From Globisporangium splendens (lineage: Eukaryota > Oomycota > Peronosporomycetes > Pythiales > Pythiaceae), in assembly GCA_006386115.1 (NCBI GenBank), contig VFIW01000034.1, positions 349,473 through 413,472 on the forward strand: DNA of 64,000 nucleotides. Direction: 5' to 3'. The notes under the pieces were generated by a model. The model had not been told where the DNA came from. It ran no database searches and worked only from the letters and a program-made list of their open reading frames with translations. Positions 22,360 through 56,995 of the stretch are shown here, in pieces. The position numbers and the translations under genes are program-made. Every line of letters starts with the position of its first letter. Within the stretch, counting starts at the first letter, position 1.

Positions 22360-23093
22360 GCTCAGAAAAGTAGGAGAAAGTGAGACCAACCACCATACAT
22401 GAAGGGATCTGCAACCAAATGGAAGGTGAACACTGATTTTTTTATAAGTGTACCCAGCAATGCGTGGAGAATGAGAACGAGAAGGTGTAGTTTTCTGTTT
22501 TTCTATTGAGTTGACGATGTTCGAGGGGACGTTGTGGCAAAAACGCAATGTCCTGGAGACTGGTGGATCGGGTATTGTCCCATTGAGCATTGGCCACAAG
22601 CGCACACCACAGACAAGCACTCACACTCCCAACGGATGGATCACATCCAGAAGAAGACGGAGAGCGCGCGGTTGACGGGCTGACGTAAGAAGGAATCCTT
22701 CCACGATCCTGCGCGCGTCCCCCACCCACCCATCTTCGTTTCACTGCTCACCCTCCCTCTCAGAAAGTGCAGCCATGTCGCTTCATTTTAGTGACTAGAT
22801 GGTCGCAAACACTCTCAATTACATATTTTCCACCAATATAAATGCATATTTTAAAGCATCCATACATTATTGGATAATATTAATAGATACAGTCTGTTAT
22901 TGGTGGAAATGGGGATCCACCAGTTGATTGGTTACAGAACTGGTCGCGTTGCCATTCCAAAGGCGCAACCACAGGCGCGGCGCACACCATTGGATTTCCG
23001 CGCAAAGAGGCACACGACGGACGCTTGAAGCTCGTGCAAGCGCTCTCTCTCCTTCTCCAGTGACGAGCGCATACACCCAGCTAGTGCAGCGCC
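22360..23093. other. Intergenic region upstream of the Pol I gene
   Basis: No coding region is supported. It includes the 3' UTR of the immunophilin, an AT-rich tract around 22800-22900 bounded by a 12-bp inverted repeat, and a CT-rich stretch at 23040-23060 just upstream of the ATG at 23094. Confidence 0.5.
22827..22909. repeat. 83-bp AT-rich segment with 12-bp terminal inverted repeats
   Basis: TTTCCACCAATA at 22827-22838 is perfectly complementary to TATTGGTGGAAA at 22898-22909, flanking an AT-rich core. It could be a tiny MITE-like relic or a hairpin in the promoter region of the downstream gene. I find no clear target duplication. Confidence 0.45.
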
Positions 23094-26000
23094 ATGGAGT
23101 CGGCGACGGACCAGACGATTCTGCGCTATGAGGTGTCGGAGGTCGGCTTCGGCTTCTACAGCGACGCCGAGATCCGCGACCTGAGTGTCAAGCAGATCAC
23201 GAGCCGCATGTCCTTCGACTCGCTCAACAACCCGGTCATCGGCGGTCTCTACGACCCGGCCATGGGCCCCGTGGACTTCAACATGATCTGTCCGACGTGT
23301 CACCAGACACAGAAGGAGTGCCCGGGCCACTTGGGCCACATTGAGCTCCCCGTGCCCGTGTACAACCCTGTTTTGTTTGGCCACATGCTCAACTTGCTCA
23401 AGCGCAAGTGCTTCACGTGCCACAAGTTCCGCATCGCGTCGGCGCGCTCGCGTGTGCTGCGCGTCAAGATCCTCTTGATCGACAATGGCTTTGACGAGGA
23501 AGCGCGCTCGCTCTCGGAGCTCCTGGAGCAGCGCAACGGCGTCGAAGACGAACCTCCACAGCGCACGTTCCAACGTCAGCAAGCGATTCTCGATGAATTT
23601 GAACGCCTCGCGCTCTCGCAGGTGAATGCGGGGAACGGCGGCAAGATCCGTCCGCTCCCACGCTCTTCGGAAGTGATGCGTGAGAAACTCGCGACGGAAT
23701 TTTTCAAGGGCGTCAAGGCCAAGTGTGAAAACTGTGGCGCCATCTCGCCAGGCATCCGTCAGGATTCCAACTCCAAGATCTTCCTCAAGGGTCTCAGTGC
23801 GCGCTCGCGCAAGGTGAACCGCTCCAAGAATCTCACGGTCGCGTCGGCGCTCGATACGATGAACGGCAACGTGTCGGACAATGACGCCCGCATGGGCAGC
23901 GACGACTCGGACGATTCCGACTCGGAGGACGACAGCAACCGCAAGAGCAAGTACGCTGCGACAGAAGACACGTCGTCGCGCGCCAAGTACCTCCCTCCAT
24001 TGGAAGTGCAGTCGCAATTGCAATTGATGTGGAAGAACGAAGACGGGCTCATGGAATTGCTCTTTGGTGACCGCAACGTTGCGAGCGGCCGCATCCCACA
24101 GGTCAAGGCCGATGGATGGAGAAAGTTTTTCCTGAACGTGATCCCGGTCGCGCCATCGCGCTTCCGTCCACCAGTGTTCCTTGGTGACAAGCAGTTTGAA
24201 CACGCGCAGAACTCGTACTTGTCCAAGATCCTCACGCTCAGTGAGAGCATCGTGCACGGCAACTACTACGACCAGCAGCAACAGCAAAAGGCGCAAACGA
24301 CCGACGAGGACGACGACACGGCTGACGAGAAGAAGCAGATCAACCTCGCGCGCAAGCTCGCGGTGTGGACCGAGCTGCAGAACAACGTCAACATGCTTGT
24401 CGACAGCAGCAAGGGCAACCAGGACGCCGCGCAGGGTATCAAGCAAGTGATTGAGAAGAAGGAAGGTCTCTTCCGTAAGCACATGATGGGCAAGCGTGTC
24501 AACTACGCCGCGCGTTCCGTCATCTCGCCAGATCCGTACATCAGTACGAGCCAAATCGGTGTGCCGCTGCGTTTCGCCAAGACGCTGACATACCCACAGC
24601 CGGTGACGCCATGGAACGTCGAAGAGATGCGCCAGTTGGTGATCAACGGACCTGATGTGCACCCAGGCGCGAACTTTGTCGAGTCTGAGACTGGTCGTTT
24701 GATCGACTTGAAGAAACGCACGCTGCACCAGCGTGAAGCAATCAGTAAGACGCTGCTGACGCGCTCGGCGAGTGCACAGGGCACGAGCAAGAACCGCGTC
24801 AAGCGCGTGTGGCGTCACTTGAAGACCGGCGATGTCGTGCTCATGAACCGTCAGCCGACGCTGCACAAGCCGAGTATGATGGCACACGTCACGCGTGTGC
24901 TCACGAACCCCAAGATGCAGACGATCCGCATGCACTACGCCAACTGTAACACGTTCAACGCCGATTTCGATGGTGATGAGATGAACATGCACTTCCCACA
25001 GAACGAACTCGCGCGTTCTGAGGCGTACACCATCGCGGCCAACGACCACCAGTACTTGGTGCCGACCGATGGCTCGCCTCTGCGTGGTCTGATCCAGGAT
25101 CACGTCGACTCTGGTGTCAAACTCAGTCAGCGCGACACGTTCCTGACCAAGGAGATGTACATGCAGCTGCTCTACTCTGCCTGGGCGAGCATGGAGGACG
25201 CAGGCGTCGAGAAGGCGCATATCGAGATCGTGCCGCCAGCGATCCTCAAGCCAAAGCAATTGTGGACGGGCAAGCAGGTGATCACGTCGGTGCTCAAGCT
25301 CCTCACCAAGGGCTTGCCACCGCTCAACCTCGACAGTAAGGCCAAGATCAAGGGCGACCTGTACGGCAACGGCAACGCCGAGCACATTGTCGTGTTCCGG
25401 GATGGCGAATTGCTCCAGGGTGTGCTCGACAAGAGTCAATTCGGTGCGTCCATGCACGGTTTCGTGCACGCGTGTTACGAAATCTATGGCGCGCGCATCG
25501 CTGCCGACTTGCTCACGACGCTCGGTCGCCTGTTTACCTGCTACCTGCAGTTTGCTGGGCACACGTGCGCATTGGAAGATCTGACGCTGAACAAGGACGC
25601 CGAGAAGCGTCGTCGCAAGTTGGTCAACGACTCGGTGTTCAACGGCGAAGAAGCATACGCTGAGTTCGCTGGACTCACGGAGTTGCTCGCAGCGAAGCGC
25701 GAGTCGGAAGAGAAGGAACACGGTGGAAAGAAGCGCCGCATGAACGAGCAGGAGCGCAAACAGATCCGCGAGCGCATGCGCGAGTTGCTCTCTGGTCCGG
25801 ACGCCGAAAACAACGCCAAGGCGCTCGATGCGCACATGATGGGCACGGTGCATGGATCCAACAGTGACATCATCAAGACGTGTCTCCCATCGGGCCAGAC
25901 TAAGTCGTTCCCAGCAAACTGCTTCTCGCTCATGGTGCTGACGGGCGCCAAGGGTTCCATGGTGAATCACTCGCAGATCTCGTGTGGTCTTGGCCAGCAG

Positions 26001-28568
26001 GCTCTTGAAGGCCGTCGTGTGCCGATTTTGTGCAGTGGCCGATCGCTGCCGTCGTATGAGCCATTCGACCCAGCCCCACGTGCCGGTGGGTACATTACTG
26101 ATCGTTTCTTGACGGGCTTGCGTCCACAGGAGTACTACCACCACTGTATGGCCGGCCGTGAAGGTCTCGTTGATACAGCCGTCAAGACGAGTCGAAGTGG
26201 GTACCTCCAGCGTTGTCTGATGAAGCACTTGGAGGATCTCCAGGTGAACTACGACCACACGGTGCGTGGCTGTGAAGGCAATGTCGTGCAGTTCCTGTAC
26301 GGCGAAGACGGTGTCGACCCGGTGCTGAGCGCGATGCTCTCGGGTAAGGACTCGGAGTTCAACTTCCAGGCCATGAACCACCGCAGTATCTCGCACAAGT
26401 ACGGCATCGACGCCAAGTTCTTCGCGCACACCAAGCTAGACATCATGAAGCCGCTCAAGCTCCACGCTGAGGCGCGCGAGGCTACGTCCAAGAACTACTT
26501 CGAGTCGACGTCGATCTTGACGCCTGGTCTGCACGTGCAGGCGCGTCGCCTGAAGCAGGGCGAGACCAAGTGGAAGCGCGGCAACATTGAAAAGGGTTTC
26601 TTTGACGCTGAGATTCTCGCGCTGTCACAGGAATACGAAGACGGCCGCGACTCGACGTACGATATCCAGTACCTGGACACGGGTCTCAAGGCGTTCGCCG
26701 TGCCACGCACAACGGTTTTCAAGTCGCGCAAGCCCACGAACAACACGCGTGCCATGTCGGGCCGCGTCGACCTGATCAAGGTCGTGCGTGCTGATCCAGT
26801 CATGCAAGAGCTCGAGCTCAACCAGCACGTGGGCTGCGTTTCAGAGCGCATCCAGGATAAGCTCTGGCAGTACAACCAGCGCAACCCTGCGAACTGCCTG
26901 GACCTGAAGAAGAAGAGCAAGAGCAAGAAGAGCAAAAAGTCCAAGAAGCACGGCGGTGACGCTGATGTTGAGGAGATTGATCGCGAAAAGATGATGACAA
27001 AGCACACGGTGAGCCCCGACGCGTTCCAGCTGCTCGTGTGGGTCAACTACCTGCGCAGCATGGCGAACCCTGGTGAGAACGTCGGTGTGCTCTGCGCGCA
27101 GTCTATTGGTGAGCCATCGACGCAGATGACGCTGAACACGTTCCACTTGGCTGGTCACGGTGCCGCCAACGTCACGCTCGGTATCCCGCGTCTGCGTGAG
27201 ATCATTATGACGGCGAGTGAGAAGATGTCGACGCCGATGATGACGATCCCGTTGCTGAAGAACGACAAGGCTCAAGCGCGTGCCCAGGAAGTCGAGCAGC
27301 GGTTGAACCAGGTCGCGCTTTCGGAACTCATCAGCAACCAGCGCGGTGTGTCGGTCAAGGACGAGTTCCTAAAGAGTGAGAACGGCATCCTCTGGGTACG
27401 TGACTACACGATTCGCTTGACGCTGTTCAAGCTCAAGTACATCAAGAAAGCCTTTGGTCTGAGCTCGGATGACGTGTACAACTCCATCGGCAAGGGTTTC
27501 ATCCAGAAATTGCTGTCTGTGTTGTCGCGCGAGATGAAGAAGAGCGGCGTGTCGGTGACGGCTGCCGAGACCAACAACTTTGCTGGCTTCGGCGCTTCGT
27601 CTGGTGCTTCCAAGAAGAAGAGCGGCGACGACGACGACGAGGATGATGACGATGAGCAAGGCACGCTGCGCTTTGGCAGTCGTGGCGAAGTCAACGGTTA
27701 CGAGATGGACGAAGAAGACAAGAAGATCCAGAACGCCCAGGACTCGGACTCGGACTCGGATTCTGACGATGACAAGAAGAAGAAGAAGAGCAAGACCGTG
27801 GGTGATAACACCAGTGGCGACGAAGGCGATGCCGTGGACGATAGCAACGTGTCGGGTAGCAAGAAGACCAAGTCGTTTGTTGCCGACGGTCTCGAGTCGC
27901 TCAACGTGCCGATCAGTGTGCGCAAGAATAAGTACTTCATGTACGCCGGCCGCAACACGAAGGAACACTTTGTGGAGTTCCGCCTTCGCTTCCCGACGCA
28001 CTCGAAGACGCTGTTGATGGTGCCAATCGTCGAGCGTGTGGCCAAGCAGGTGCTCGTTCAGCACTGCCCTGGTATCTCGCGATGCTACCTGATCAACCAG
28101 CGCATTGGCGATGCGCAGGAGGAGACGCCATGCATCCAGACTGAAGGTCTCAACTTCCAGGAGATCTGGGCGTTTGACGACATCTTGGACGTGAACCAGC
28201 TGGCGACGAACGATATTTACCAAGTGCTGCAAACGTATGGTGTCGAAGCCGCGCGCGCATCGATCTCCAAGCAGATCAACGACGTGTTCGGCGTGTACGG
28301 TATCAGTGTCGACCCGCGCCACTTGAGTTTGTTGGCCGATTACATGACGGCCCAGGGTGGCTACATGCCGCTGAACCGCATGGGCATGAACAACAAGGGC
28401 TCGTCCATGCAGCAGATCACGTTCGAGACGTCGATGAAGTTCCTGACGCAGGCTGCGCTCGGCGGGCTCTCGGACAACCTCGAGTCGCCGTCGGCGCGCA
28501 TCATCCTGGGGCAACCGCCACGCGTGGGCACGGGCAGCTTCTCGCTGCTGCAGCCAATTGCATTATAA
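23094..28568 (+). CDS. RPA1: DNA-directed RNA polymerase I subunit RPA1 (largest subunit)
   Basis: An intronless gene of 1824 residues. The N-terminal clamp zinc site 'CPTCHQTQKECPGHLGHI' is near residue 67, and a second CxxC pair 'CENCG' follows. The catalytic metal-A loop 'NADFDGDEMN' starts at residue 622, with Asp624, Asp626 and Asp628 as magnesium ligands. The trigger loop and bridge helix region 'SIGEPSTQMTLNTFH' precedes 'NVTLGIPRLREI'. Assignment to Pol I rather than Pol II or III rests on the absence of a heptapeptide tail, the Pol I-like 'TLNTFHLAGHGAANVTLGIP' stretch, and acidic inserts, including a long Asp/Glu/Ser-rich one at about residues 1504-1586 in the jaw. The enzyme transcribes ribosomal RNA in the nucleolus. 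Codon third positions are strongly GC-biased, which produces a 1165-codon antisense open frame that I treat as an artefact. Confidence 0.95.
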   Translation: MESATDQTILRYEVSEVGFGFYSDAEIRDLSVKQITSRMSFDSLNNPVIGGLYDPAMGPVDFNMICPTCHQTQKECPGHLGHIELPVPVYNPVLFGHMLNLLKRKCFTCHKFRIASARSRVLRVKILLIDNGFDEEARSLSELLEQRNGVEDEPPQRTFQRQQAILDEFERLALSQVNAGNGGKIRPLPRSSEVMREKLATEFFKGVKAKCENCGAISPGIRQDSNSKIFLKGLSARSRKVNRSKNLTVASALDTMNGNVSDNDARMGSDDSDDSDSEDDSNRKSKYAATEDTSSRAKYLPPLEVQSQLQLMWKNEDGLMELLFGDRNVASGRIPQVKADGWRKFFLNVIPVAPSRFRPPVFLGDKQFEHAQNSYLSKILTLSESIVHGNYYDQQQQQKAQTTDEDDDTADEKKQINLARKLAVWTELQNNVNMLVDSSKGNQDAAQGIKQVIEKKEGLFRKHMMGKRVNYAARSVISPDPYISTSQIGVPLRFAKTLTYPQPVTPWNVEEMRQLVINGPDVHPGANFVESETGRLIDLKKRTLHQREAISKTLLTRSASAQGTSKNRVKRVWRHLKTGDVVLMNRQPTLHKPSMMAHVTRVLTNPKMQTIRMHYANCNTFNADFDGDEMNMHFPQNELARSEAYTIAANDHQYLVPTDGSPLRGLIQDHVDSGVKLSQRDTFLTKEMYMQLLYSAWASMEDAGVEKAHIEIVPPAILKPKQLWTGKQVITSVLKLLTKGLPPLNLDSKAKIKGDLYGNGNAEHIVVFRDGELLQGVLDKSQFGASMHGFVHACYEIYGARIAADLLTTLGRLFTCYLQFAGHTCALEDLTLNKDAEKRRRKLVNDSVFNGEEAYAEFAGLTELLAAKRESEEKEHGGKKRRMNEQERKQIRERMRELLSGPDAENNAKALDAHMMGTVHGSNSDIIKTCLPSGQTKSFPANCFSLMVLTGAKGSMVNHSQISCGLGQQALEGRRVPILCSGRSLPSYEPFDPAPRAGGYITDRFLTGLRPQEYYHHCMAGREGLVDTAVKTSRSGYLQRCLMKHLEDLQVNYDHTVRGCEGNVVQFLYGEDGVDPVLSAMLSGKDSEFNFQAMNHRSISHKYGIDAKFFAHTKLDIMKPLKLHAEAREATSKNYFESTSILTPGLHVQARRLKQGETKWKRGNIEKGFFDAEILALSQEYEDGRDSTYDIQYLDTGLKAFAVPRTTVFKSRKPTNNTRAMSGRVDLIKVVRADPVMQELELNQHVGCVSERIQDKLWQYNQRNPANCLDLKKKSKSKKSKKSKKHGGDADVEEIDREKMMTKHTVSPDAFQLLVWVNYLRSMANPGENVGVLCAQSIGEPSTQMTLNTFHLAGHGAANVTLGIPRLREIIMTASEKMSTPMMTIPLLKNDKAQARAQEVEQRLNQVALSELISNQRGVSVKDEFLKSENGILWVRDYTIRLTLFKLKYIKKAFGLSSDDVYNSIGKGFIQKLLSVLSREMKKSGVSVTAAETNNFAGFGASSGASKKKSGDDDDEDDDDEQGTLRFGSRGEVNGYEMDEEDKKIQNAQDSDSDSDSDDDKKKKKSKTVGDNTSGDEGDAVDDSNVSGSKKTKSFVADGLESLNVPISVRKNKYFMYAGRNTKEHFVEFRLRFPTHSKTLLMVPIVERVAKQVLVQHCPGISRCYLINQRIGDAQEETPCIQTEGLNFQEIWAFDDILDVNQLATNDIYQVLQTYGVEAARASISKQINDVFGVYGISVDPRHLSLLADYMTAQGGYMPLNRMGMNNKGSSMQQITFETSMKFLTQAALGGLSDNLESPSARIILGQPPRVGTGSFSLLQPIAL

Positions 28569-34721: not shown

Positions 34722-35269
34722 TGTAACGGGGTCACACGCTAAGTTGCACCGCAGCAACTTAGCTCAATCTGTTGGCATTGGACTAAGTCCGCATGCAACT
34801 AAAGTTTCCGTACCTAGCTACGAGAAACACCAAAGCAGCCGAGCCATTAGGTTCGCCGCACTTACTCGAACCGCAAAGATAGCCAAGCTACTCTGATTAG
34901 AGGTCGGTCACAGACACGACTCTCATAGGCTAAAACTATATGCTTTTAGACCAATTGAATAACACGGCAATTCAGAGCCATTCACTTATGTCCACATTGA
35001 AATAAGCGGAAGTTCACTATGCTAGATAGTGAACTAAAGATAACTCAGGGTGTCCTGTAGAGGGCAACCCCCAACAAATAAACAGTTCCATTTTTACCTC
35101 TGACTAAGCCTTTAGTTATTGACAGTTACTCTATAGAGATCTATAGGTAACCGATCGTTGCGCTGCAGGAAGCAGGCAACAGCTCTCGGAACAGAGTCCT
35201 TGAGAGAAGCGTTGCATACGCTTCCTCACACACGTACCGTGCTGCGTAACTCGGGAGTGTCCGGTTACA
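34722..35269 (+). repeat. 5' LTR of element B
   Basis: 548 bp, TG..CA ends. It contains a perfect 10-bp hairpin, AGTTCACTAT at 35011-35020 and ATAGTGAACT at 35026-35035 with a 5-base loop. The hairpin is conserved in the other LTR at 50773-50797. Confidence 0.93.
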
Positions 35270-35341: not shown

Positions 35342-35410
35342 ATGGCGTCAATTGACCCTGCGCAGTTCCCGCACCTCTCGGCTGAACACCGGAGTGTGCT
35401 GACCCGAATG
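35342..35410 (+). pseudogene. gag: First 23 codons of element B gag, cut off by element C
   Basis: ATG at 35342 opens a frame 'MASIDPAQFPHLSAEHRSVL' that reaches 35410, where element C starts. The last five bases are the GAATG duplication. The frame resumes in phase at 43060 (ATG 43057-43059 is the duplicated codon), so gag of B was intact before C landed and had 386 residues. Confidence 0.88.
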
Positions 35411-36058
35411 TGTAAAAGGGCACTGTTCCAAACAGTCCCTTAAACACGGCACACACGCTTGTGCCAGAGGAAGCGTCTCCCGACTTGGAGGGAGGAAGGA
35501 AGACTTGAGGGCTTGGTGGTAAAATTGCAACTGAGTTGAAATGCTTATGGTTCCTGACACTACATGTAAAACACCACTAGGGCTCCTAGAGGTTTTATAA
35601 CTAAAACCTAAACATACACAATAAAACCTATGAATATGATATATAAACCTTGGGTACACTGAGGTTGAACCCACGAGATCTTCGAGAAGCTTGAACTTGA
35701 AGTCCCGTGGAAAATTCCCTGCAAAGTGATTGGCTACAGCCACTCACTTCAGGTGGAAGAGACACGTTGGCCTCATCACCAGTGCAGTTTCCCAAGTAGG
35801 AACCATCACTCAGTACTTGATTAGTACATGGATGTAATCACTCTGTACTGATTAGTACATGTGAACAACATTCTGCACTGATCAGCACAGAGAGCGCTCG
35901 TGACGTCATGGGATGACGTCACATGTGCATGTGGGGATTGTCGTACCGTAATCCCTTTGTTATTTGTCTCTCCACAATGCACACTGAAGGTGGTGTGTGG
36001 CACACTAGATCTGAGAACAGATCCACCTTCATGTAATGGCTAAGTATAGCCCATTACA
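35411..36058 (-). repeat. 3' LTR of element C
   Basis: 648 bp. It contains paired TGACGTCA palindromes at 35901-35908 and 35914-35921, and several GTACTGATTAGTAC-type palindromes at about 35814-35890. It differs from the partner LTR mostly in clustered patches. Confidence 0.92.
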
Positions 36059-36134
36059 TCATCCCCTCCTTAAAGTCACAAGTACCTTGCGTACTTTTGC
36101 AGACCTTTCGGAGCAGTTCACTTTCCAATCGGCC

Positions 36135-37205
36135 ATGAAGCGACCAAGTGACCAAGTAAACCAAGGTGAAGAACGTCCGTTGTCCAAGCGACAGCAGACA
36201 GCTCCAGAACTCTTCGACGTATCCTCCATTCTGAAGAAGAAGGGGGATCTCGAGTTCTACAAGGAGCGGTTCTTCAGTTGGCGTCGGATCAACGATCGCG
36301 ATGATCCGAACCAACACATCGCAGCCCAGAGAGACTCATGGCGAACATTCGTTCGTCTTGAGAACGAGAACAAGATGGAGCGTCTTCTTCGTCGCGGCAA
36401 TGCTCGTGCCGAAAGAAGAACTCCTGCTGACGACAGAGCGAATCCCAGCTCTGGTCGTCGTAGTGTCGCCCCTGGCGACGCTACAAGTGGTTCTCGTAGC
36501 TGCGGACCACGTCGGGAACATCAGACTCCATCGTCTGCCGTGGTTCCCACGTGTCCGAGCTCGGTGGATATCCACGCCACCGAACTCTGTAGAAGCGTTG
36601 ATGGTTCAACCGCTTCTTTCCTCGACGATGAGTCGGTCGATCTTCGTGATCAACAATCGACTCAACCACCCAGCGATGCTCTCCCTGAGAGTCTAACAAC
36701 GGGGGTGGGGCTGAACGAGAAAACCATTGAGCGACTCTGGAAGTGGAAGAGTGCTCATCGTGGGCAAATCGAGGCTTTGCAGCAGCGTTGTTCGACACTT
36801 GAGGAACGCTGCGAGAGTCTCGAGAACCTTGCCGCCGATCATGAGTCGAAGATCGATGTCCCGACAGAAGGTTGTGCCCAGTGTTCGGCTTTGGAGTCCC
36901 GTTTCGAGGAACGGTTCCAGCAAGTTCAGGGCGAACTTGTCCGACTCCGGAAGAACGAGAAGTCTCGTGAGTTGGCTCACGATCGCCTTTTGCGCTCTGT
37001 GGAAGAGGCAGGTTCAGCTCTCGAGGTACTTCGTGGTGAGTACCATTCTCGTCTTCAAGCGCTGGAGTCGGTGAAGGACCAATCCTTCGACGTCCTGCAA
37101 CTCTTGTACGCCGAGAAGAACCTCCAGAGCGATGAGCTGTTTGCTCTTCGCAATCAAGTGGAGAAGCTTCACGATCAGCTCGATCGTTTGCGGAAGATCT
37201 CGTAG
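36135..37205 (+). CDS. Antisense ORF of element C: coiled-coil protein overlapping pol on the other strand
   Basis: This frame of 356 residues runs opposite to the gag-pol of C. It starts 77 bp inside the 3' LTR and overlaps the last 725 bp of pol (integrase tail and chromodomain). The N-terminus is basic ('MKRPSDQVNQ', 'LSKRQQ'), a possible nuclear signal. A block with 'FFSWRRI' and 'WRTFVRLENEN' follows, then a Ser-rich middle. About 165 C-terminal residues predict a coiled coil ('TIERLWKWKSAHRGQIEALQ', 'LLRSVEEAGSALEVLR'). A homologue of 349 residues lies at 58665-59714 in element E with the same layout, and a longer relative is in B. The 3' LTR upstream would have to supply its promoter. 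Function unknown; antisense accessory genes are known in some plant gypsy elements and retroviruses, but I recognise no family. Confidence 0.75.
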   Translation: MKRPSDQVNQGEERPLSKRQQTAPELFDVSSILKKKGDLEFYKERFFSWRRINDRDDPNQHIAAQRDSWRTFVRLENENKMERLLRRGNARAERRTPADDRANPSSGRRSVAPGDATSGSRSCGPRREHQTPSSAVVPTCPSSVDIHATELCRSVDGSTASFLDDESVDLRDQQSTQPPSDALPESLTTGVGLNEKTIERLWKWKSAHRGQIEALQQRCSTLEERCESLENLAADHESKIDVPTEGCAQCSALESRFEERFQQVQGELVRLRKNEKSRELAHDRLLRSVEEAGSALEVLRGEYHSRLQALESVKDQSFDVLQLLYAEKNLQSDELFALRNQVEKLHDQLDRLRKIS

Positions 37206-40200
37206 GATCCGCAGATCCACTCGGAAGGTAAGGCTTTAGTCTACCCACATAAAATGTCGGGTGTAGACGCATGCGTATAGGTATGTCTAGCGTGTAGGCA
37301 TCACCACTGCATTTCACTACCTTGAGCGGTCCAATGAACCTTGGCAGAAGCCTCGAGCTTCCCAAGTTGGACACTGCATGTTCAGGCAGGTTCGCCGTGC
37401 TAGGTAATACAAGATCATTGATCTTATAAACTTGCTTGTTCTTCCTTCCGCTCTTGTCTGCTTGTTCCTTTTGCAGATCCTGAGCCTTCGCGATTGCGTC
37501 TCGAACAAACCTCACAACGGCTTGTCTCCTCACAACAAAGTCATCGACTTGCTGTTCTTCACGACTTGTTAGGTCGTTGAGGGGTTTCATCGAGTCAAAA
37601 TTGGCTTTTAACTCGGCAACAGCATTCAGGTCATACGACGACTGCGGCTTGTTTCCATGAGCCGTAGTCCCTCCCCCACTTAAGGTAGAGACCTCACCCA
37701 TTATGGAAGCAGGCACTCGAGGATGAATGCCGTAGTTCACATAAAATGGAGAGTGACCTGTCGAGACATGCGTGGAGTTGTTCAACGCAAACTCGGCAAG
37801 AGGGAGAAACTCACTCCACTCTTTGAAAGACGTCGCATAACTGCGCAACACGTCTTCAAGGACACGATTCACTCGTTCAGTTTGACCATCCGTTTCAGGA
37901 TGTGCCGCTGTTGACATGGCCAACTTGGTGTCCAGAAGTCCAAAGAGTGCACGCCAAAACTTGGACGTGAAACGGGTGTCACGGTCAGACACGATCTCAA
38001 CGGGCAGGCCATGCAGACGGAATACGGCGTCTACAAAGACCTTGGCAGTCATTTCGGCTGAGATCTTGTCCGACACCGGCGCAAGATGGACCATCTTTCT
38101 GAATCGGTCCACAAACACAAGGATGCCATTGCGTCCGTGTTTGTCTCGAGGAAGTCCGAATATGAAATCCATACTCACAGACTTCCAACTGTCCGATGGG
38201 ACAGCCAATGAACGAAGTGGTGCCTGAGTGGAACCAGAGGGTTTCACTCGTTGGCAGATCTCGCAAGTCCTCACATACTTGCGAACCCACTTGTACATGT
38301 GTGGCCAGTAGTAATCTCGGGAAAGACTGAGAAATGTTTTCTCACGTCCGAGATGGCCACCCGAAGGACTGTCATGGTACTCATACAAGAGTCGATGACG
38401 CAGACCTTCGTCGTTGGGAACAACAACCCTTGCTGTATCCCCTTGTTCAACCGCATAGTACAACAATCCATTGTGTACTCGGAAGCGGTGAACTCGCGAC
38501 CTTGTGCGCGACGGAAGACCTTGCAGTGCTTTGTCCGAAGGGTCCTTGAAGTACTTCAACAAGTCCTGACATGTTTCGTCAGACTTGTACCTTTCGACGA
38601 TCTCTTCTCGCACTGTAGTCGCAGCTCGCACCGCGATCGCTTGAACATCTTCACAGAGTCGACACGCTCCGTCCGTGTCTTCACTCTTGGTCTTCGGATC
38701 GTAATCCGGACGTCTTGACAGCGCATCGGCTAAGATGTTCGTCTTGACTGGCTTGTAGTGTACAACAAAGTTGTACTCTGCAAAGAAGGAGAACCATCTC
38801 GCCATTCTTTGCGACAAATGAGGAGTCTTCACTGCCGTACGCAGCGACGCATGATCTGTGTAGATCGCAAAGCGCTCCTCGCCAAGCAGATACACACGGA
38901 ACTTGACCAAAGAATACTTCATCGCCAGAAGTTCTTTGTCATGGACTGGGTAGTTCCGTTCTGCGGGTCGGAGTTGTCGTGACTGATACGACACAACTCG
39001 CTCATGACCCTCATCATCGTGTTGCATCAAGGCGCAACCGATGGCATAGTCGCTTGCATCGCAAACCACATGAAAAGGCTTGTCGTGGTTTGCGATTGCC
39101 AGCACGGGAGCTTCTCGCAAACTCCTCTTCACTTCGGCAAACGCTGCTTGGTGGTCACTGGACCACTCCCACTCAATGTCCTTCTTCAGGAGCTGTGTGA
39201 GCGGTTGCACCAACGCTACATAATTGCGCGTGTACTTGTGCAAGTAGTTGGCCGGACCCAGCCATTGTCTCAGCTGTTTGACGTTCTGAGGCACAGGCCA
39301 ATCGTCAATAGCTTTGACCTTCTCCGGATCGACTCGAACGCCATGCTTTCCCACAAAGCAGCCGAGAACGGGGATCTCTGGTGCAAAGAATATGCACTTC
39401 TTCAGGTTAGCGTAGAGTTTATTCTCTCGCATGACCTGAAAGACTTGACGGAGATGGTCAAGATGAACATCAACGTCAGACTTTTCACCCGTGGTTTTAC
39501 TATGAACGAATATATCGTCAAAGTAACTCGGTGCAAACCCTCTCAATGGACGAAGTAAATTCGTGACCATCCTATTGAAAGTCGCAGGAGCGTTCTTCAG
39601 TCCCTGTGGCATCACTAACCATTCCCACAGCATACCACTCGGGGTACTCACTGCAGTTAGTGGTACATCATCTTCGCGCATTCGAATCTGATAGAACCCA
39701 TCTTTCAGATCGATAGCACTAAAGAGAGTGCTGCCAACCATTCCATCAAGGATCATATCCTTGCGTGGAACCGGAGTTTGGGCTGGAATGGTAGCGTCGT
39801 TCAGCTTGTTGAAAGCGTGAACGATGCGCCAACCACCAGTTGCCTTCTTCACACAGAAGGTTGGGCTACAATGTGGAGACTTGCTCTCTCGCACATGCCC
39901 AGCCTCAGCACGTTGCGCAAAGAACTCGTCGATCGCAACGACTTGTTCTCTTGGCAACGGCCACTGCCGTGTGATACAATACTTCGTGCCAGGAAGTATG
40001 TCAATCTCATGACGAATGCCTCTATCGAATGGCAGTTCGTCCGGCACCTTGTCTGGGAATATGTCCTCATATTCCTTGACAAGTTCATACACGGGGTTCG
40101 TTTTGAGAGCGTCCCATGACTGCTCCTCGAACCTTTCCTTCCGTGTCTTCTCATCGAACACTTCAGCCTCCGTTGCTGATACCGTGTTGATGTCTTCTGC

Positions 40201-41255
40201 GTCGTCAACATCGACGATCATGCAGACCTGCGAAATTTCGCCTTTCGCTAGGCTACGCTTCAGCGTCTTCTTGCTCATCCACGGCAAGGAAACCAAATCT
40301 TCAACAGAGCTTGGAGGATTTTCAATCTTCACGTGACGGATTATATCCACGTCACCATCTTCATTGTAGACCGCGATATTCGCAAACTCGCTTGAAATGT
40401 CTTGTGCTTGGACACTTCCTTCGTCACCGTAACTTGTACCTTGATCAGGGGCACACGGGACACTCTTCTTGCTGGTCTTCTTCTTCTTCTCTCGGGATGG
40501 CTCTTCGGCTCTTTTCCCATTCGTTTCTTCCACGCACATCGCCTCATCCATGGGATCGATGGCAAAGGAGACAGTCTTTTTCTGGCGCCTGACTGCTCCA
40601 CCTCCAGTAGTCTTCTTCAAGATGGGTACCGCTCGTGAACATGGGGGGCCATCGCACACCGCAATATCACGAGGGTCATCTGGGATCTCCTCCACAGATG
40701 TATACACCCACACCACTTCATCCGTTGTCACACAGCTCAAGTCAGCATCGTGTGACTTGTCAACGGAGATCTTCATCTTCATCCAGTCAATGCTAGGTTG
40801 ATAACGCTTCAACCATGGCATTCCCAGGATGATGTCAAACTTGTCATCGAGGTCGAGTAAAATGAACTCGTCTTCACCTCGGAAATCTTCACACTTCATC
40901 GCCAAGCGCACCACGCGCTTTGGCATCTTCACAGTTGACCCGTTGGCCAACCGGATAATCATCGTCTTCTCTTCATTCGCATCAGGCATTGATACTTTAT
41001 GCCTGACGATCACTTCATTTCGAACAAAGTTGTTCGACGCACCAGTGTCGACCAAAGCACGTAGAGGCGTTGCAATACCGTCTACATGAACTTTGAGAAC
41101 GATCAAACTTGACGTTTGACTGACACTGTTCTCCCTCGTGGAAACTGCATGTGCATCATGCACATTGGGGCCAGAGTCCTGTGTATCCACAACATCCACA
41201 GTCCTCTTTTCGAGCCCAGTAGGAGGCCCCGCCCCTACTGGTCGTTCCCGTGTTT
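36481..41255 (-). CDS. pol: pol of element C: protease, reverse transcriptase, RNase H, integrase, chromodomain
   Basis: The open frame runs from 41388 to 36481 and overlaps the end of gag in the -1 frame, so Pol would be made by frameshifting near 41250-41256. Protease has 'LVDTGASNNFV'. A charged linker follows. Reverse transcriptase has 'FSAIDLKDGFYQIRM' and 'YFDDIFVHS'; RNase H has 'FHVVCDASDYAIGCAL'. Integrase shows 'HDSPSGGHLGREKTF', 'CEICQRVK' and the acidic residues in 'SMDFIFGLP', 'EIVSDRDTRF' and 'DGQTERVNRVLED'. The tail contains a low-complexity linker and a chromodomain ('RFYRVRWRGYPPSSDTWEP') that in such elements targets chromatin. No stop or frameshift interrupts the frame. 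The last 725 bp are shared with the antisense ORF. Confidence 0.93.
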
Positions 41256-42278
41256 TGAACGTTGGGAACGATCGAACCCACGGCCGCGACCGTAGTTGTT
41301 CGAGCGCGAACCCTGTGTCGTTTGCCGACCCGGCAAAGACACTTTGCAGTTCCGAGCGAAGTGACCCGGCTTCCCGCAACGGAAACACTTCCCATCGTTG
41401 CGAGGACGCTCATTTCCAGGCGTGGAAATGTACGAGATGTCCATAGGCTCGGGACCATCATGCGCAACATTCGATTGCCGAATTGGTCTCGACGCAAACA
41501 CGTGGAACTTCGCTTGCTTCATGCTGAACTCTTCTTGCATGGCACGTTCAATGGCTTCGTCCAGCGTCTTGGGATACTCGCGGAACAGTTGGCTCCGAAT
41601 CGGACCATCGTTCAGACCCGCCATGAACGTCACAACTTGCGTCGGAACGTCAATCGGCTCGTCAACGATGCTCGACACCAAGTAGCGAGCACGTTGTGCA
41701 TACGAGTGAAGGTCGAAACGGCCTTGACGAAGCTTGAGGAACTCGGCGCGCGCACGGAACTCACTCTGCGGAGGTTCAAACGCCTTCTTGAGTTCGGTCT
41801 TGAAGTGGTCGTAGCTGGGGAAGCAGTTTAGATCAGCTTAACGCTTGCCATACGCCCAGCTCTTCGCACGACCCGCAAGGTTGGACATCGCGAACAACAC
41901 TTGCTGTGAAGGGTCTCGCAGTTGTCTTGCAGTGATGGCTGCATCCAACTCGACGAACCATCGCGAGAGGGGTTCGTTCTCTCCGCCGCGATACGGAGAG
42001 ACGTCAAGCTTCAATGGCACCGTCCTAAATGAGGAAACAGGGGTTGCGACCTGCTTCCGGGAGGACATGATCTCGTGGTGCATGAAGCTGACCACCGCGC
42101 TCTTCTGGTCTTCCGGAGACGCCGACCGAAGCAGACTGACCACAGCAGCCTCTCCGATGACATCTCGCATGCGCTCAAGCGCCATCCACTCATGAGAAGA
42201 CAAGTGAGGGAAACCCTCAATAGTCAACTCGACAGTTTCCGGTACTGCTGGACCGAGTGGGGTTCCTGTAGCATCCAT
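41235..42278 (-). pseudogene. gag: gag of element C, with an in-frame stop
   Basis: The frame begins at ATG 42278 and shows the same gag as element D ('LSRWFVELDAAITARQLRDP'). A TAA at 41838-41840 interrupts it after 'SWAYGKR', where D has a Leu codon. The frame then continues to TAG 41235-41237 with a CCHC knuckle 'CFRCGKPGHFARNC'. Element C therefore could not make full-length Gag or Gag-Pol itself and would need help from a related copy. Confidence 0.88.
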
Positions 42279-42384: not shown

Positions 42385-42404
42385 CCGCTCGAAGTGCTAC
42401 CAGG
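42385..42404 (-). promoter_or_regulatory. Primer-binding site of element C
   Basis: On the minus strand, TGGTAGCACTTCGAGCGG follows the LTR end after two C residues. It is nearly identical to the site of element D at 60470. Confidence 0.72.
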
Positions 42405-43054
42405 TGTAATGGGCGCTGTTCCAAACAGTCCCTTAAACACGGCACACACGCTTGTGCCAGAGGAAGCGTCTCCCGACTTGGAGGGAGGAAGGAAGACTTG
42501 AGGGCTTGGTGGTAAAATTGCAACTGAATTAAAAATGCTTATGGTTCCTGTCGCTACTTGTAAATGAACCCCAAGGGCTCCTAGAGGTTTTATAACTAAA
42601 ACCTAAACATACACAATAAAACCTATGAATCTGATATGTAAAACCTTGGGTACACTGAGGTTGAACCCACGAGATCTTCGAGAAGCTTGAACTTGAAGTC
42701 CCGTGGAAAATTCCCTGCAAAGTGATTGGCTACAGCCACTCACTTTAGGTGGCAGAGACACGTCGGTCTCATCACCAGTGCAGTTTCCCAAGCAGGAACC
42801 ATCACTCAGTACTTGGTTAGCACATGGATGTCATCACTCTGTACTGATTAGTACATGTGAACAACATTCTGCACTGATCAGCACAGAGAGCGCTCGTGAC
42901 GTCATCTTATGACGTCACATGTGCATGTGGGGACTGTCGTACCGTAATCCCTTTGTTATTTGTCTCTCCACAATGCACACTGAAGGTGGTGTGTGGCACA
43001 CTAGATCTGAGAACAGATCCACCTTCATGTAATGGCTAAGTATAGCCCATTACA
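42405..43054 (-). repeat. 5' LTR of element C
   Basis: 650 bp, with TGACGTCA at 42897-42904 and 42910-42917. Patches such as the sequence around 42550-42580 resemble the LTR of E, whereas the same patch in the other LTR of C resembles D. Confidence 0.92.
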
Positions 43055-43056
43055 GA

Positions 43057-44174: not shown

Positions 44175-44687
44175 GACTCTATAGCTTCGGCGTCGCCGAC
44201 TACTAGAGTCGTGCAGATGGGAAGCTTAGTCCCAGGAGCTCTTGACAACAAGGCTCCGAGTGAGATGTTGGTATATAGCGCCGATGTGAAGGGCTATGAG
44301 AAGAAAATGACGGTTCTTGTTGACTGCGGTGCGTCACAGAACTTCGTCTCTAAGTCAGCTCTGAAACAGAGTCTGCAAGCGTATGAGCGACTTGTCCACA
44401 CTGGCAAGCGCGAGAAGATGATCGTACGCCTGGCCGATGGGTCGACAGTACACACTGAAGGAGTTCGAGTTGAACTCTCTTTCAGGTTTTGCGACTTTGT
44501 CTGCAAAGAAACATTCGTAGTACTAGCGATGGGGTCGAAGTACGACCTCATCCTAGGAATGCCTTGGCTGGCGAAACATCAGCCTTGGATCGATTGGCGA
44601 GCACGCACAATCGGGAGCTCCACCCCTTCCTCTGATGAAGAGCGAAGATTGCGGGAATATTTCCACGCTATGGATGTGAGCATTGAA

Positions 44688-44900
44688 CACGCTGCGGCAG
44701 GGAGCCCAGCTGGAAGACACGCGGCGGCAGGTAGCCCCGCTTCAAGCGCACACGCTGCGGCAGGGAGCCCGGCTGGAAGACACGCGGCGGCAGGTAGCCC
44801 CGCTTCAAACACACACGCTGCGGCAGAGAGCCGAGCAAGAAGATACGCTGAGGCAGGTAGCCCAGCGAAGCGATACACTGTGGCAGGTAGCCCAGTTTGT
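44688..44900 (+). repeat. 63-bp tandem repeat in the protease-RT linker of element B
   Basis: Two nearly identical 63-bp units, 44688-44750 and 44751-44813, are followed by degenerate copies to about 44900. They encode Ala/Gly/Ser/Pro-rich repeats such as 'HAAAGSPAGRHAAAGSPAS'. The repeats keep the frame open. Confidence 0.88.
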
Positions 44901-47900: not shown

Positions 47901-48131
47901 TATTTTAACTCGCTGCGGCACCCGCGCGTACCCGCCACTCTGTTTGAGGGCGTCGAATATTCTGCGGTGGGAGGGCAACTCGCTGCGCTCGATGCGAGCG
48001 CGCGACCTCCGTCACCAGACGTGGCGTTAACCGCTCACGTGGACGCGCGCGATGCGCCGCCTGTGCGGTCGCACTTCGAATCTGTCACGGTCTTACCGGA
48101 CGGCACGCGTTCCACATTTGGAGAGAAAAAC

Positions 48132-48291
48132 ACGGTACTGAGTTACGGTACTCGTGTCCCTATAGATCGATCTTCCACGGTACTGAGTTACGGTACTCGT
48201 GTCCCTATAGATCGATCTCCCACGGTACCGAGTTACGGTACTCGTGTCCCTATAGATCGATCTTCCCACGGTACCGAGTTACGGTACTCAT
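48132..48291 (+). repeat. 45-bp tandem repeat in pol of element B
   Basis: Units at 48132-48176, 48177-48221 and 48222-48267 plus a partial fourth to about 48291. Units 1 and 2 are 45 bp. Unit 3 has one extra C, which shifts the frame and leads to the stop at 48294. The unit encodes '..SYGTRVPIDRS..'. Confidence 0.9.
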
Positions 48292-48783
48292 GCTAAAAAT
48301 AGCCAGTCTCAGACAGAATCAGGCGACTGCTCGTGCGAGCGTCAGCCACGAAAGGGAGAGCGCGCGGTGTCACCCACCGGCGCAGAAATAGATCTCTCTG
48401 CAGCACGCGCTGCGAGAGCAACGAAAAGCAAGACAAAGCCGTCGCGGCAGCGCGGCAATTTGTCGATGAGCGCGCAGCATTGTTGCGTCGCGTACGCGAC
48501 CAACTAGCTGCTGCGCAAGACAAGCAGAAGCTCTACGCCGATAAATCGGGTAGAAAGAACAAACAAACGTTTTGTGTGGGTGATAAAGTGCTATTGAGCA
48601 TTAAAAACCTACCAAACGATGCAGTCACAACGCTCCCCAGCGGGAGTAAGTTGTTGCCACGATTCATCGGGCCGTACACTGTTGTGGAGAAGATTGGAGA
48701 CTTGAATTACAAGCTCGATCTCCCAACGCGAATGGCAACGCACCCCGTGTTTTACGTGGGTTTGCTGAAACGCTACCATGACG

Positions 48784-50319
48784 CTACTGCGGATTCTTAT
48801 CCCAGTGCGGGAGCACGTCGATCTCGTCAGGGGGCTCAGACGCCGCCCATCGAGACACGAGCGCGTTGTGCCTCTCCCAAAGCGTCTTCACTCGCGGAGC
48901 GTACCTCGCGTGGAAGTTCTTCCCGCGGACATGGTACTCCTCCTGCATCTGACGAGCTTCCCTCTGCTCCGTCTCAAGCGCCGTCACCCTCTGCTTTAAC
49001 AGCGAGGTCTCGTCCAGATATTGCTGGCGAAGGGCACGGACGTCTTGCTGTAGCGCCCCCAAAGACGATGCGTTCGCGTGAACCATCTGAACCATCGCAT
49101 CAGGTGCAACCACCGATGCTGAAGCGCGGTAGGGCGCCACCGGTCCCGCTGATTGATAAGCAGGGACAGCGCCACTACCATGTCGAGCGCCTGCTGCGTG
49201 TGCAGCGGCGCAAGGGGAACACCCACTACCTTGTGAAGTGGCGTGGATACGATTTGTCGCAGAGCTCATGGGAGCCTGCTGAGCGCCTCCTCGAGGACGT
49301 TCCCGACATGGTCGCCGCTTTTGAGCGTGCGTTGATGGCGAGTGAGACTCGTCCATCTGTCGCTTGTTAATACCGAGACTCGTGCGAGCACGGTCATCAC
49401 TCTTTGTTGCTTCGCGGTACTTTTGTACGCGCTGCACAGCGAATTGCATGCGCTGGCTACGTTGTGCCCCAGGATCGGTGGCCAATGTACGCGCAGCCCC
49501 AAAGCGTTTCACACCGGTTCTTGATGCCAAGAACGCGGTTTCGTATTGATCCTCGGTCTCACCTTCGTAAAGGATAACCGGGATCGGGTGCACGCGCAGT
49601 GCCCCATCACGTCCTCGCAGATCGGCTTCGCGCCATCGTGCGAACTCGGAGTCATACCTCTCGAGTGGAACCCGCGCCCGTGCAAGTAAATTTGCCGGGG
49701 TTTTCGCTGTCGGCCATTCCTTTGGCGGCGGCATAACGGGAAGCGAAAAATGGACGGAACCTTTTGGTGGTGGTTCCAGTCCGGTCTCATTGTTGGTAAT
49801 GATGACCTCCTCCTTCTCCCTTTCATTGACAGTCTTTGCGACGTCATTCTCTTCCTCCGTCCGATAAATCGAGACGTCTGCCGAGGGATTTCGCTCCAAC
49901 TCGTGCAGTTCGGGGCTACCGCTCCCGTAACGCAGCTCCTCATACTCGACCCACTCGTCGATGGAGTCGCGCCTCACGGTGATGCCTTCCTCTTCCTCCC
50001 CTTCCTCGGGTGAGTACTCTTGGTAGTCGACTGCCGTGTCGTCATCGGCGTCGCTTGCCCTGCTCATCGGCTTGATGGCAGGGAGATCGCCAAATTGCAG
50101 CTCACTGACACCGTCAGGAGCAGTCTTCGATTGAGCCGACTCGTCGTCGCTCATGCTCACGTCTTCCGTGGCAGACGTGACCGCAGCGGCAGCGCGTTGT
50201 TTTGCGCTTGCCGCCTCGCGCTTCTCAGCGCCGAGCTTCTGCAGTCTTTGAACGAGTCCTTCTGCAGGACCGCTCGCGCTTCGGGCGATCTTTTCGCGCA
50301 CCGATTTGTTCGTCGCCAT
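48784..50319 (-). CDS. Antisense ORF of element B: acidic and coiled-coil protein
   Basis: This frame of 511 residues runs opposite to pol from ATG 50319. It overlaps the last ~590 bp of pol (linker and chromodomain) and fills the space between pol and the 3' LTR. The first ~200 residues are charged, with an acidic patch ('EYSPEEGEEEEG'). The middle is Pro-rich and then basic ('KRFGAARTLA'). An Ala/Gly/Ser-rich stretch leads to a C-terminal coiled coil ('LGALQQDVRALRQQYLDETS', 'VTALETEQREARQMQEEY') ending 'PPDEIDVLPHWDKNPQ'. Position, strand and C-terminal coiled coil match the antisense ORFs of C and E, though overall sequence similarity is low by eye. It has no homology I recognise. It is intact although pol of the same element is broken. 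Confidence 0.7.
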   Translation of the reverse strand: MATNKSVREKIARSASGPAEGLVQRLQKLGAEKREAASAKQRAAAAVTSATEDVSMSDDESAQSKTAPDGVSELQFGDLPAIKPMSRASDADDDTAVDYQEYSPEEGEEEEGITVRRDSIDEWVEYEELRYGSGSPELHELERNPSADVSIYRTEEENDVAKTVNEREKEEVIITNNETGLEPPPKGSVHFSLPVMPPPKEWPTAKTPANLLARARVPLERYDSEFARWREADLRGRDGALRVHPIPVILYEGETEDQYETAFLASRTGVKRFGAARTLATDPGAQRSQRMQFAVQRVQKYREATKSDDRARTSLGINKRQMDESHSPSTHAQKRRPCRERPRGGAQQAPMSSATNRIHATSQGSGCSPCAAAHAAGARHGSGAVPAYQSAGPVAPYRASASVVAPDAMVQMVHANASSLGALQQDVRALRQQYLDETSLLKQRVTALETEQREARQMQEEYHVRGKNFHARYAPRVKTLWERHNALVSRWAASEPPDEIDVLPHWDKNPQ

Positions 50320-50484: not shown

Positions 50485-51031
50485 TGTAACGGGGTCACAC
50501 GCTAAGTTGCACCGCAGTAACTTAGCTCAATCTGTTGGCATTGGACTAAGTCCGCATGCAACTAAAGTTTCCGTACTTAGCTACGAGAAACACCAAAGCA
50601 GCCGATCCATTAGGTTCGCCGCACTTAATCGAACCACAAAGGTAGCCAAGCTACTCTGATTAGAGGTCGGTCACAGACACGACTCTCATAGGCTAAAACT
50701 ATATGCTTTTAGACCAATTGAATAACACGGCAATTCAGACCATTCACTTATGTCCACATTGAAATAAGCGGAAGTTCACTATGCTAGATAGTGAACTAAA
50801 GATAACTCAGGGTGTCCTGTAGAGGGCAACCCCCAACAAATAAACAGTTCCATTTTTACCTCTGACTAAGTCTTTAGTTATTGACGGTTACTCTATAGAG
50901 ATCTATAGGTAACCGATCGTTGCACTGCAGGAAGCAGGCAACAGCTCTTGGAACAGAGTCCTTGAGAGAAGTCGTGCACACGCTTCCTCACACACGTACC
51001 GTGCTGCGTAACTCGGAAGTGTCCGGTTACA
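50485..51031 (+). repeat. 3' LTR of element B
   Basis: 547 bp, preceded by a G-rich polypurine tract and followed by the GGTAT duplication at 51032-51036. It differs from the 5' LTR at about 16 positions by eye, including one 1-bp indel. Confidence 0.93.
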
Positions 51032-51826
51032 GGTATGATCTCGTATCAAGGAACCGACTGGGTTCAACACCTTGGAATGATCGAATACGCGCACGCAACC
51101 TTGATCAGTGCCTCGACAGGATTCTCTCCCTTCGAGATCGATACAGGACGTAAAGAGCGAAACGTTTGGGAACAGACAATCAACTCGAAAGCAGAAGTAA
51201 GAGGCATTGCTGAGTACGCAAAGATCTTTGCCAAGGAACGGCAGAAGATAGTGGAACTTGCCCGCAAGAACTTGATAAAGGCGCAAGAAACGCAGAAGAA
51301 ATACTATGACCGCAAACGCCGTGTCCATCAAGTTGAGTTCAAAGCAGGCGACCTTGTGATGCTAGATACTAGTCGAGTATCGCTGAAACATGCTGCAAGC
51401 GAAACAGATATGAAACGTGCAAAGTTCGCTGCAAGAAAAATTGGTCCCTTGGAGATCATTCGAATGATAAACCCGAATGTTGCAAAGTTGAAACTTCCTG
51501 CCCACATGATGCGAATCAACCCAACGTTCAACGTGGATGTTCTCTCGCACTACGTGCCAACGCCAGACAAGTTTCTGAGTCGTCCCATTCCAAAGTCGTC
51601 GAAGTTCGTCATGAACGATTCAGCGAACAATCTTCAGATCGTGGAGAAGTTGCTGAAGAAACGTCAGTTCAATCGACAACCAGAATGGCTTGTCCAGTGG
51701 CATGGTGAGACGGAACACGAAGCCACATGGAAAAGAGAACGAAACATCCGTCATGTTGCCCACTGGACCGAACTCGTTGCCGACTTCAAAGAACGACAAC
51801 GAGAACTCAAATCGAGGAGGATGTAA
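51032..51826 (+). pseudogene. pol: Integrase C-terminal part and chromodomain of element A
   Basis: This continues the integrase frame that stops at 34721; after removing B and one GGTAT copy the reading is in phase ('EDALRG' to 'MISYQG'). It covers the end of the integrase core, the integrase C-terminal beta region ('VHQVEFKAGDLVMLDTSRVS') and a chromodomain-like end ('PEWLVQWHGETEHEATW'). The stop TAA at 51824-51826 lies within the first five bases of the 3' LTR (TGTAA), so pol runs directly into the LTR through a purine-rich ATCGAGGAGGA that would be the polypurine tract. Confidence 0.9.
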
Positions 51827-56300: not shown

Positions 56301-56995
56301 TGTTGCTTGGGTTTCGCTTGCCTGTCGACAATGTGTTTATCGTCGACAGTCCCATGCAGCACTGGCCGAAAGCCATCAAAGATATCTTCGTGACACTCAG
56401 CGTATCCTGGTTCAATCACTTGGGGTATGAGATCGTCAACCACTTTATCTTCTTGCGTCAAGTCTCGATATGGTTCAGTCACTTTCGCATGCGGGCGTTG
56501 AGTATGAGTCTGATCTTGATCTTGCGGATTGCGACGCCCGATAAGATGCAAGAGGCCGAGTATGAGCTGCTGAAACTGATTCTCGCGATCCTCATTGCCG
56601 TGCTTCTCGGAGCTTTAAGTGCACTAATGCCATTACACCGCCAGCGGCACCAGCAGCACAGCCAACGGGGCAATAGCATCCACTGTTTAGGCTGTTCCGT
56701 CGCACCGTCTGGCTCAAGGAACTCGAAACGCGACAACATTGTCGTCGCGTGCCTCCAAAAGCACGGTATGCCGCTGAACAAGCACGGTCTCCTCGGGTTT
56801 TCGTACAGGCAACATGGCTGGGCACTCGTGGGGCTTCTCGTCGAAGGCTGGGAGCTCACCGAGCGGGCAAAGCGACCGCAGCAAAAACCATCAGCAACTG
56901 GGGAAAGAAGTCAGTATGTAATCTGCAAGGGTATGTGCCGTATTCCAGTGCCAACAGACGACTCGGGTCATATCAAATGCATCTTGTACAGCTGA
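53389..56995 (+). pseudogene. Multi-exon membrane protein gene, with one frameshift
   Basis: Exon 1 runs from ATG 53389. After a Ser/Thr-rich N-terminus, one hydrophobic segment ('HLAIVIVVAQAIWAIAVPI') is followed by a large, Cys-containing, probably extracellular domain. At about 54530 the frame shifts. The simplest reading is a 2-bp GA duplication in AGTGAGATGAG, after which coding-like sequence continues ('TEKIVSSVLQFDLVITSG'). Clear introns follow at 55312-55376 (GTATGT..ACAG, phase 1) and 55739-55828 (GTACGT..ATAG, phase 0). A possible 72-bp intron at 56619-56690 is in phase either way. The last exon has several hydrophobic segments from about 56090 ('NLVRNIIFSNWSISLALNAI', 'VLLAVSTIPLLLGF', 'LLKLILAILIAVLLGAL'). 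The family is not recognised; the layout suggests a surface receptor- or transporter-like protein. A sequencing error instead of a real frameshift cannot be excluded. Confidence 0.72.

Follow-up and report, generated by a model that had tools for sequence, protein, structure and literature searches.

Antisense accessory genes are known from plant and fungal LTR elements and from HTLV (PMC7264820, PMC11963269, PMC8365987, PMC3185765); a preliminary description of the locus studied here had mentioned a few plant gypsy elements and some retroviruses. Plant Ty3/gypsy elements with antisense open reading frames (ORFs) include maize Grande (gene23), rice RIRE2, Silene Retand (TRP28), and PvRetro13 (SMC-like domain). 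The plant ORFs are reported to adjoin the 3′ LTR in most copies, some of their products to be nuclear or SMC-like, gene23 is said to have an upstream promoter of its own, and action directed at the element has been proposed for them (PMC7264820, PMC11963269). Boty / BcGypsy1 of Botrytis cinerea carries the antisense gene brtn (PMC7264820, PMC8365987). HBZ of HTLV-1 is an antisense, nuclear protein with a C-terminal zipper that damps sense transcription, and HTLV-2 to -4 are described as encoding antisense proteins too (PMC3185765). For the overlapping HIV-1 genes Env and Rev, each nucleotide is reported to serve mainly one gene, with structured parts lying opposite tolerant ones (PMC9119678).

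Antisense ORFs in nested Ty3/gypsy elements

We analyzed a 64-kb stretch of Globisporangium splendens DNA (the window), which holds nested Ty3/gypsy elements A, B, C, and E. Element B (plus strand; LTRs at 34722-35269 and 50485-51031) is inserted in an element A. Element C lies on the minus strand in gag of element B, flanked by a GAATG duplication. Its 5′ LTR is at 42404-43056 and its 3′ LTR at 35410-36058; a polypurine tract was read from the sequence at 36059-36069. The pol ORF of C (36481-41388, minus strand) encodes protease, RT, RNase H, integrase, an SH3 part (residues 1342 to 1387; 37228-37365; Pfam PF24626), and a chromodomain (residues 1573 to 1634; 36487-36672; PF00385). In the pol tail of B (48333-49370, plus strand), Pfam places SH3 at 48579-48779 and the chromodomain at 49176-49328. 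The Pfam order in both C and B (gag, protease, RT, RNase H, integrase, C-terminal chromodomain) is the layout of a Ty3/gypsy chromovirus. Element E is cut at ~59810 by a further C-type element, which interrupts its chromodomain-containing pol tail (58990-59781, minus strand; Pfam). The pol proteins of B and C are 60.5% identical over 904 aa, and that of A is 32 to 38% identical to B or C. The pol of B also has short internal duplications (48131-48289 and 44687-44895). Elsewhere in the window, one plus-strand frame is open for 5322 aa (575-16543), and three ORFs of 296 to 393 aa (53389-56995, plus strand) have no Pfam match at E 0.001.

Each of C, E, and B carries one long ORF opposite gag-pol, as the preliminary description had stated: 36135-37205 in C (plus strand, 356 aa, P0001), 58665-59714 in E (plus strand, 349 aa, P0002), and 48784-50319 in B (minus strand, 511 aa, P0003). 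None contains an internal stop, and the ATG and frame of the C ORF are common to its homologues. The position claimed for them, from beside the 3′ LTR into the pol tail, also held: all three are located between the 3′ LTR and the pol SH3 part and overlap the chromodomain, and in C the SH3 part starts 22 nt past the antisense stop. The C and E proteins were correctly called homologues (61% identity). The B protein, described as longer, more diverged, and of another family, matched the C profile with a probability of only 12%, and the match was confined to the stretch opposite the chromodomain. It had further been said that the frames are intact in damaged elements. All three frames are open, but pol of C is likewise a single open 1635-aa ORF, so the damage is mainly nesting.

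We searched the G. splendens genome (53.3 Mb, 195 contigs) for further copies. Among the best candidates, which were the ones scored, 89 of 114 matches to P0001, 100 of 116 to P0002 (a list that overlaps that of P0001), and 71 of 86 to P0003 were stop-free. Random stops in this frame among the copies, one of two observations that had been named beforehand as jointly refuting a gene, were thus not seen. The scored lists favor the best-scoring copies, and "most copies" is not a full census; among these scored copies, the ORF is present in most and is conserved like other element proteins. As an additional ORF of an LTR element, it is antisense and adjoins the 3′ LTR, yet it overlaps the last part of pol. 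In distinct C/E/F loci, chosen by homology from the best-scoring lists, the other strand carries a pol SH3 motif past the end of the ORF in 66 of 66, and an LTR/polypurine junction precedes the ORF in 58 of 66. Loci L001, L002, L005, L006, L011, and L012 were left out as duplicates, and L047, L068, and L071, with frames truncated or broken near the start, were excluded from the codon alignment. Protein alignments comprised 25 of 81 database matches plus two window proteins for the C/E type (A1) and 10 of 34 plus P0003 for the B type (A2). Full-length homologues with conserved motifs, down to 44% identity, occur among metagenome proteins. We conclude that, by genome sequence, more than 100 copies of a retrotransposon family in G. 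splendens carry the antisense frame.

In public gene models, many of these ORFs appear as "hypothetical protein," some of them joined to gag. Models P0100, P0109, and P0119 fuse a B-type antisense ORF to gag (P0119 also to protease); such fusions probably span nested elements.

Element A provides a comparison without the feature. In its pol-tail region (51035-51826, plus strand), the longest antisense open stretch is 126 codons. The Pfam matches to SH3 and chromodomain are 27 residues apart in A (where the chromodomain match is slightly below the cutoff, 24.2 versus 25.1 bits), 132 in B, and 185 in C. Hence, the antisense coiled coil accompanies a longer pol linker.

Constraint alternates between strands

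The main result, absent from the preliminary description, is that selective constraint switches between the two strands. In C, the pol stop faces codon 116 of the antisense ORF; its position ranges from codon 101 to codon 116 among 63 distinct copies. Codons 1 to 112 of the C ORF (36135-36470, plus strand) are therefore free of pol. They are followed by a linker opposite the chromodomain (codons 118 to 180; 36486-36674, plus strand) and by a predicted coiled coil (residues 185 to 355; 36687-37199, plus strand) opposite the pol linker between SH3 and chromodomain. We determined dN/dS for 10 pairs among six representatives of the 63 copies, using nearest-neighbor comparison, a simple method for overlapping frames. 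The antisense frame was constrained over codons 1 to 112 in 10 of 10 pairs (dN/dS, 0.19 to 0.39). Opposite the chromodomain, values were 0.65 to 2.09 for the antisense frame versus 0.08 to 0.40 for pol. Opposite the pol linker (codons 181 to 356) the relation was reversed, with 0.27 to 0.34 for the antisense frame versus 0.70 to 2.12 for pol. On the SH3 side, pol dN/dS was 0.13 to 0.26 in five pairs over 450 nt, a sixth pair being saturated in synonymous change; the window's E is interrupted there, and its two pairs are accordingly weak. Bootstrap intervals of the constrained frame were below 1 in 9 of 9 tests (three pairs in each of three regions), and those of the unconstrained frame mostly included 1. 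Sliding windows of 40 codons, pooled over seven non-independent pairs, located the strand switches at about codon 112 and codon 190 and showed the pol linker evolving like the pol frame past the pol stop, where that frame is noncoding.

We also compared singletons, taken as mostly postinsertion changes, with shared variants, defined as those in three or more copies. In 42 copies of C1 and C2, singletons were under weaker constraint than shared variants: pN/pS was 0.88 for singletons versus 0.26 for shared variants in the antisense N terminus (P = 0.007), 0.51 versus 0.27 in the antisense coiled coil (P = 0.04), 1.01 versus 0.24 in the pol chromodomain (P = 0.054), and 1.06 versus 1.45 in the pol linker (P = 0.37). 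The coiled coil of family E, with few changes among 17 copies, did not show the C1 and C2 pattern (shared variants, 0.69 antisense and 0.46 pol).

Two loci, L069 and L070, are mosaic copies of the antisense ORF. L069 combines an E-type N-terminal part (dS of 0.04 to the window's E) with a C-like coiled coil (dS of 0.16 to the window's C and 0.85 to its E), indicating that families recombine within the antisense ORF.

We conclude that the antisense protein of C and E is under purifying selection, both beyond pol and opposite the pol linker. Constraint on this protein covers its N-terminal part and its coiled coil but is lifted where it faces the chromodomain. Pol is constrained on its SH3 side and in its chromodomain, and its linker, which faces the antisense coiled coil, is free.

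The layout recurs in family B

Family B, compared in ten pairs, offered less power than C/E/F. The antisense N terminus had dN/dS of 0.24 to 0.63 across them. Opposite the chromodomain, pol values were 0 to 0.21, and antisense values were 1.66 to 3.62 in the 7 of 10 pairs that yielded one. Close pairs differ at few sites in the C-terminal part and fail to distinguish the two frames there. The window's B gave 0.33 to 0.39 (antisense) versus 0.69 to 0.78 (pol) with L077, L079, and L082, similar values with L075 (0.60 antisense, 0.54 pol), and the opposite direction with L074 (0.75 antisense, 0.39 pol). In far pairs with L081, antisense dS was saturated (dN, 0.70 to 0.76), and pol dN (0.96 to 1.04) exceeded dS (0.67 to 0.74). 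We conclude that family B shows the C/E layout again, with weaker data for the coiled coil and a protein without clear similarity. The earlier suggestion of a candidate new retroelement gene gains support from the selection tests in both C/E/F and B. From the shared layout we infer one origin followed by fast divergence of the antisense protein, although the two layouts may be convergent.

Predicted proteins and a candidate promoter

All three antisense ORFs had been described as ending in a predicted coiled coil, which agrees with the AlphaFold helices of C and B and with a hydrophobic period of 3.52 to 3.54 residues in C, E, and B. Over four proteins the period was 3.48 to 3.54 residues, matched by 0 of 500 shuffles for each. 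For the C protein, AlphaFold (27 sequences) predicted helices at residues 39 to 94, disorder at 95 to 184 (pLDDT below 50), and one helix at 185 to 355. The B prediction (11 sequences, lower confidence) was mixed at approximately 190 to 308, disordered at 309 to 403, and helical at 406 to 494. The part facing the chromodomain is predicted to be disordered in both proteins. By a loose rule, 25 of 27 rows contain a bipartite-NLS-like pattern. More than 150 residues lie between a basic N-terminal patch and the heptad coiled coil, and Pfam gave no match to a bZIP family. Neither P0001 to P0003 nor the 11 rows of A2 matched any Pfam family above the cutoff; TRP28 (PF04195) was not among the matches of P0001 to P0003 up to E 0.1 or of those 11 rows. 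No fold match indicated a function, and weak bHLHZip-type rows reflect long helices only.

In oomycetes, the initiator (INR) is described as YCAYTYY and the flanking FPR element as MWTTTNC, with a usual gap of 2 nt (PMC3599244). The region upstream of the C ORF contains a candidate core promoter (36118-36133, plus strand), in which an initiator-like TCACTTT, 17 nt before the ATG, is followed after 2 nt by an FPR-like AATCGGC (5 of 7 positions). An INR is located exactly 17 nt 5′ of the ATG in 60 of 66 C/E/F copies, accompanied by an FPR that agrees with the 7-nt consensus in 5 or 6 bases. The other six comprise two copies with shifted starts (motif at −25), two with a changed base (the window's E and L065), and two that are truncated. 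By chance, an INR and FPR pair occurs in 4 to 7% of shuffled versions of each upstream region. A separate promoter, 17 nt 5′ of the ATG, is thus predicted for the antisense ORF in C/E/F. With the polypurine tract on one side and the ORF on the other, the candidate initiator lies outside the LTR. The preliminary description had envisaged antisense transcripts starting in the 3′ LTR; motif prediction instead puts the best promoter candidate outside it, and in the C/E/F families only. At B loci, an INR was absent within 190 nt in 12 of 13, and L081 has two, neither within 80 nt of the ATG. In B-type copies (50319, minus strand, and L073 to L082), the place of the C/E/F initiator is taken by a GCACACGTG or GCGCACGTGAG box immediately 5′ of the antisense ATG.

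Proposed function and alternative explanations

The preliminary description had suggested that the product could regulate or package the element. Cautiously, we favor the reading that the selected antisense frame, which interlocks with the pol tail, specifies a self-associating nuclear protein with a coiled coil and that this protein regulates the element's expression. Transcription, translation, nuclear location, and action on the element are the steps that we infer in this best explanation. The ORF would be transcribed from its candidate promoter (in C/E/F) and then translated. The predicted parts of the product, from a nuclear signal and helical N-terminal domain through a flexible linker to a long coiled coil, would suit a small nuclear oligomer. 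By analogy with HBZ in HTLV-1, such an oligomer might act on its own element, with lowered sense transcription as the probable effect.

Thanks to the interleaving, coding on the two strands probably causes little conflict, since whole domains of one gene face linkers of the other. We consider it reasonably likely that this domain-wise arrangement (pol SH3, antisense coiled coil, chromodomain, and antisense N-terminal domain, with disordered linkers opposite) arose in the common ancestor of B and C/E. It would then mark an oomycete chromovirus clade whose nuclear antisense regulator evolves at a much higher rate than pol.

The main rival to a regulator is an antisense accessory protein that partners the integrase-chromodomain tail or Gag, in targeting or assembly, rather than regulating transcription. 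The evidence of selection fits such a partner equally, and long coiled coils often serve assembly. The nuclear-signal-like N terminus and the possible separate promoter suit a regulator at least as well, and we regard a partner role as possible but rather unlikely.

A captured host gene, carried antisense and retaining a host-type function, is improbable. The lack of a Pfam family above the cutoff would suit it, but every one of the homology-chosen C/E/F loci adjoins the pol SH3 motif, and in two families the antisense coding parts bracket the chromodomain.

Slightly less probable still is that the ORF is a by-product of pol codon bias and that any antisense RNA works at the RNA level, for instance by giving rise to small RNAs. 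Long antisense ORFs without evident function do occur here: the Rpb1-type RNA polymerase gene at 23094-28568 (plus strand) has a 1165-aa antisense ORF (22932-26429, minus strand) without a Pfam match, so antisense length alone proves little in this window. When the pol protein was held fixed and synonymous codons were randomized, the antisense frame over the chromodomain alone was open in 18 to 39% of trials (six sequences); openness there is thus no evidence. However, the C antisense frame was open over all 240 overlapping codons in just 0.13% of trials. The low dN/dS of the antisense frame in stretches without pol, or with pol free to vary, also speaks against a by-product, as do the heptad pattern and the conserved motifs of distant homologues. 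We conclude that the C/E antisense ORF is not a codon-bias shadow of pol.

Least probable of all is a real antisense gene facing a decayed extension of pol (linker and chromodomain). The unconstrained linker would fit this view, but the pol chromodomain is constrained in C/E/F and B alike, and the pol frame stays open through the linker. When codons were shuffled without altering the antisense coiled coil, the pol frame remained open in only 2.4% of trials for C, 0.7% for E, and 3.9% for B.

Comparison with known systems

Approximately 0.7 kb of DNA is common to two opposite-strand genes with little conflict, and this makes the question of how antisense overlaps become stable a testable one. 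The window contains a natural comparison, with element A lacking the feature and B and C having it, and the ORF antisense to the RNA polymerase gene is a comparison case for selection tests. The antisense ORFs also define an apparently undescribed protein family of an abundant mobile element, and annotation of "hypothetical protein" models would improve.

Antisense accessory genes and segregated overlapping genes were known already. The preliminary description knew of no family like the C/E/B antisense proteins, and we found none in open-license papers, nor did we find there opposite-strand genes alternating domain by domain across a chromodomain or such a gene in oomycetes. As far as the plant ORFs are described in the sources used, the likeness is in being antisense, adjoining the 3′ LTR, and occurring in most copies of Ty3/gypsy families. 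They are placed between pol and the LTR, whereas here two-thirds of the ORF overlaps pol, with the chromodomain inside the overlap. The TRP28 domain of Retand was not among the Pfam matches of the C, E, and B proteins up to E 0.1. The brtn gene, compared by description, is similarly an additional antisense gene of an LTR element in a filamentous microbe. HBZ, also compared by description, differs in being retroviral and spliced, in starting in the 3′ LTR, and in lying near env/tax rather than being woven into an integrase tail. In its bZIP domain the zipper follows the basic region; the proteins here have a basic patch and a coiled coil, widely separated. The segregation described for HIV-1 Env and Rev resembles the alternation; in these oomycete elements, it operates between opposite strands, by whole domains, and in a retrotransposon.
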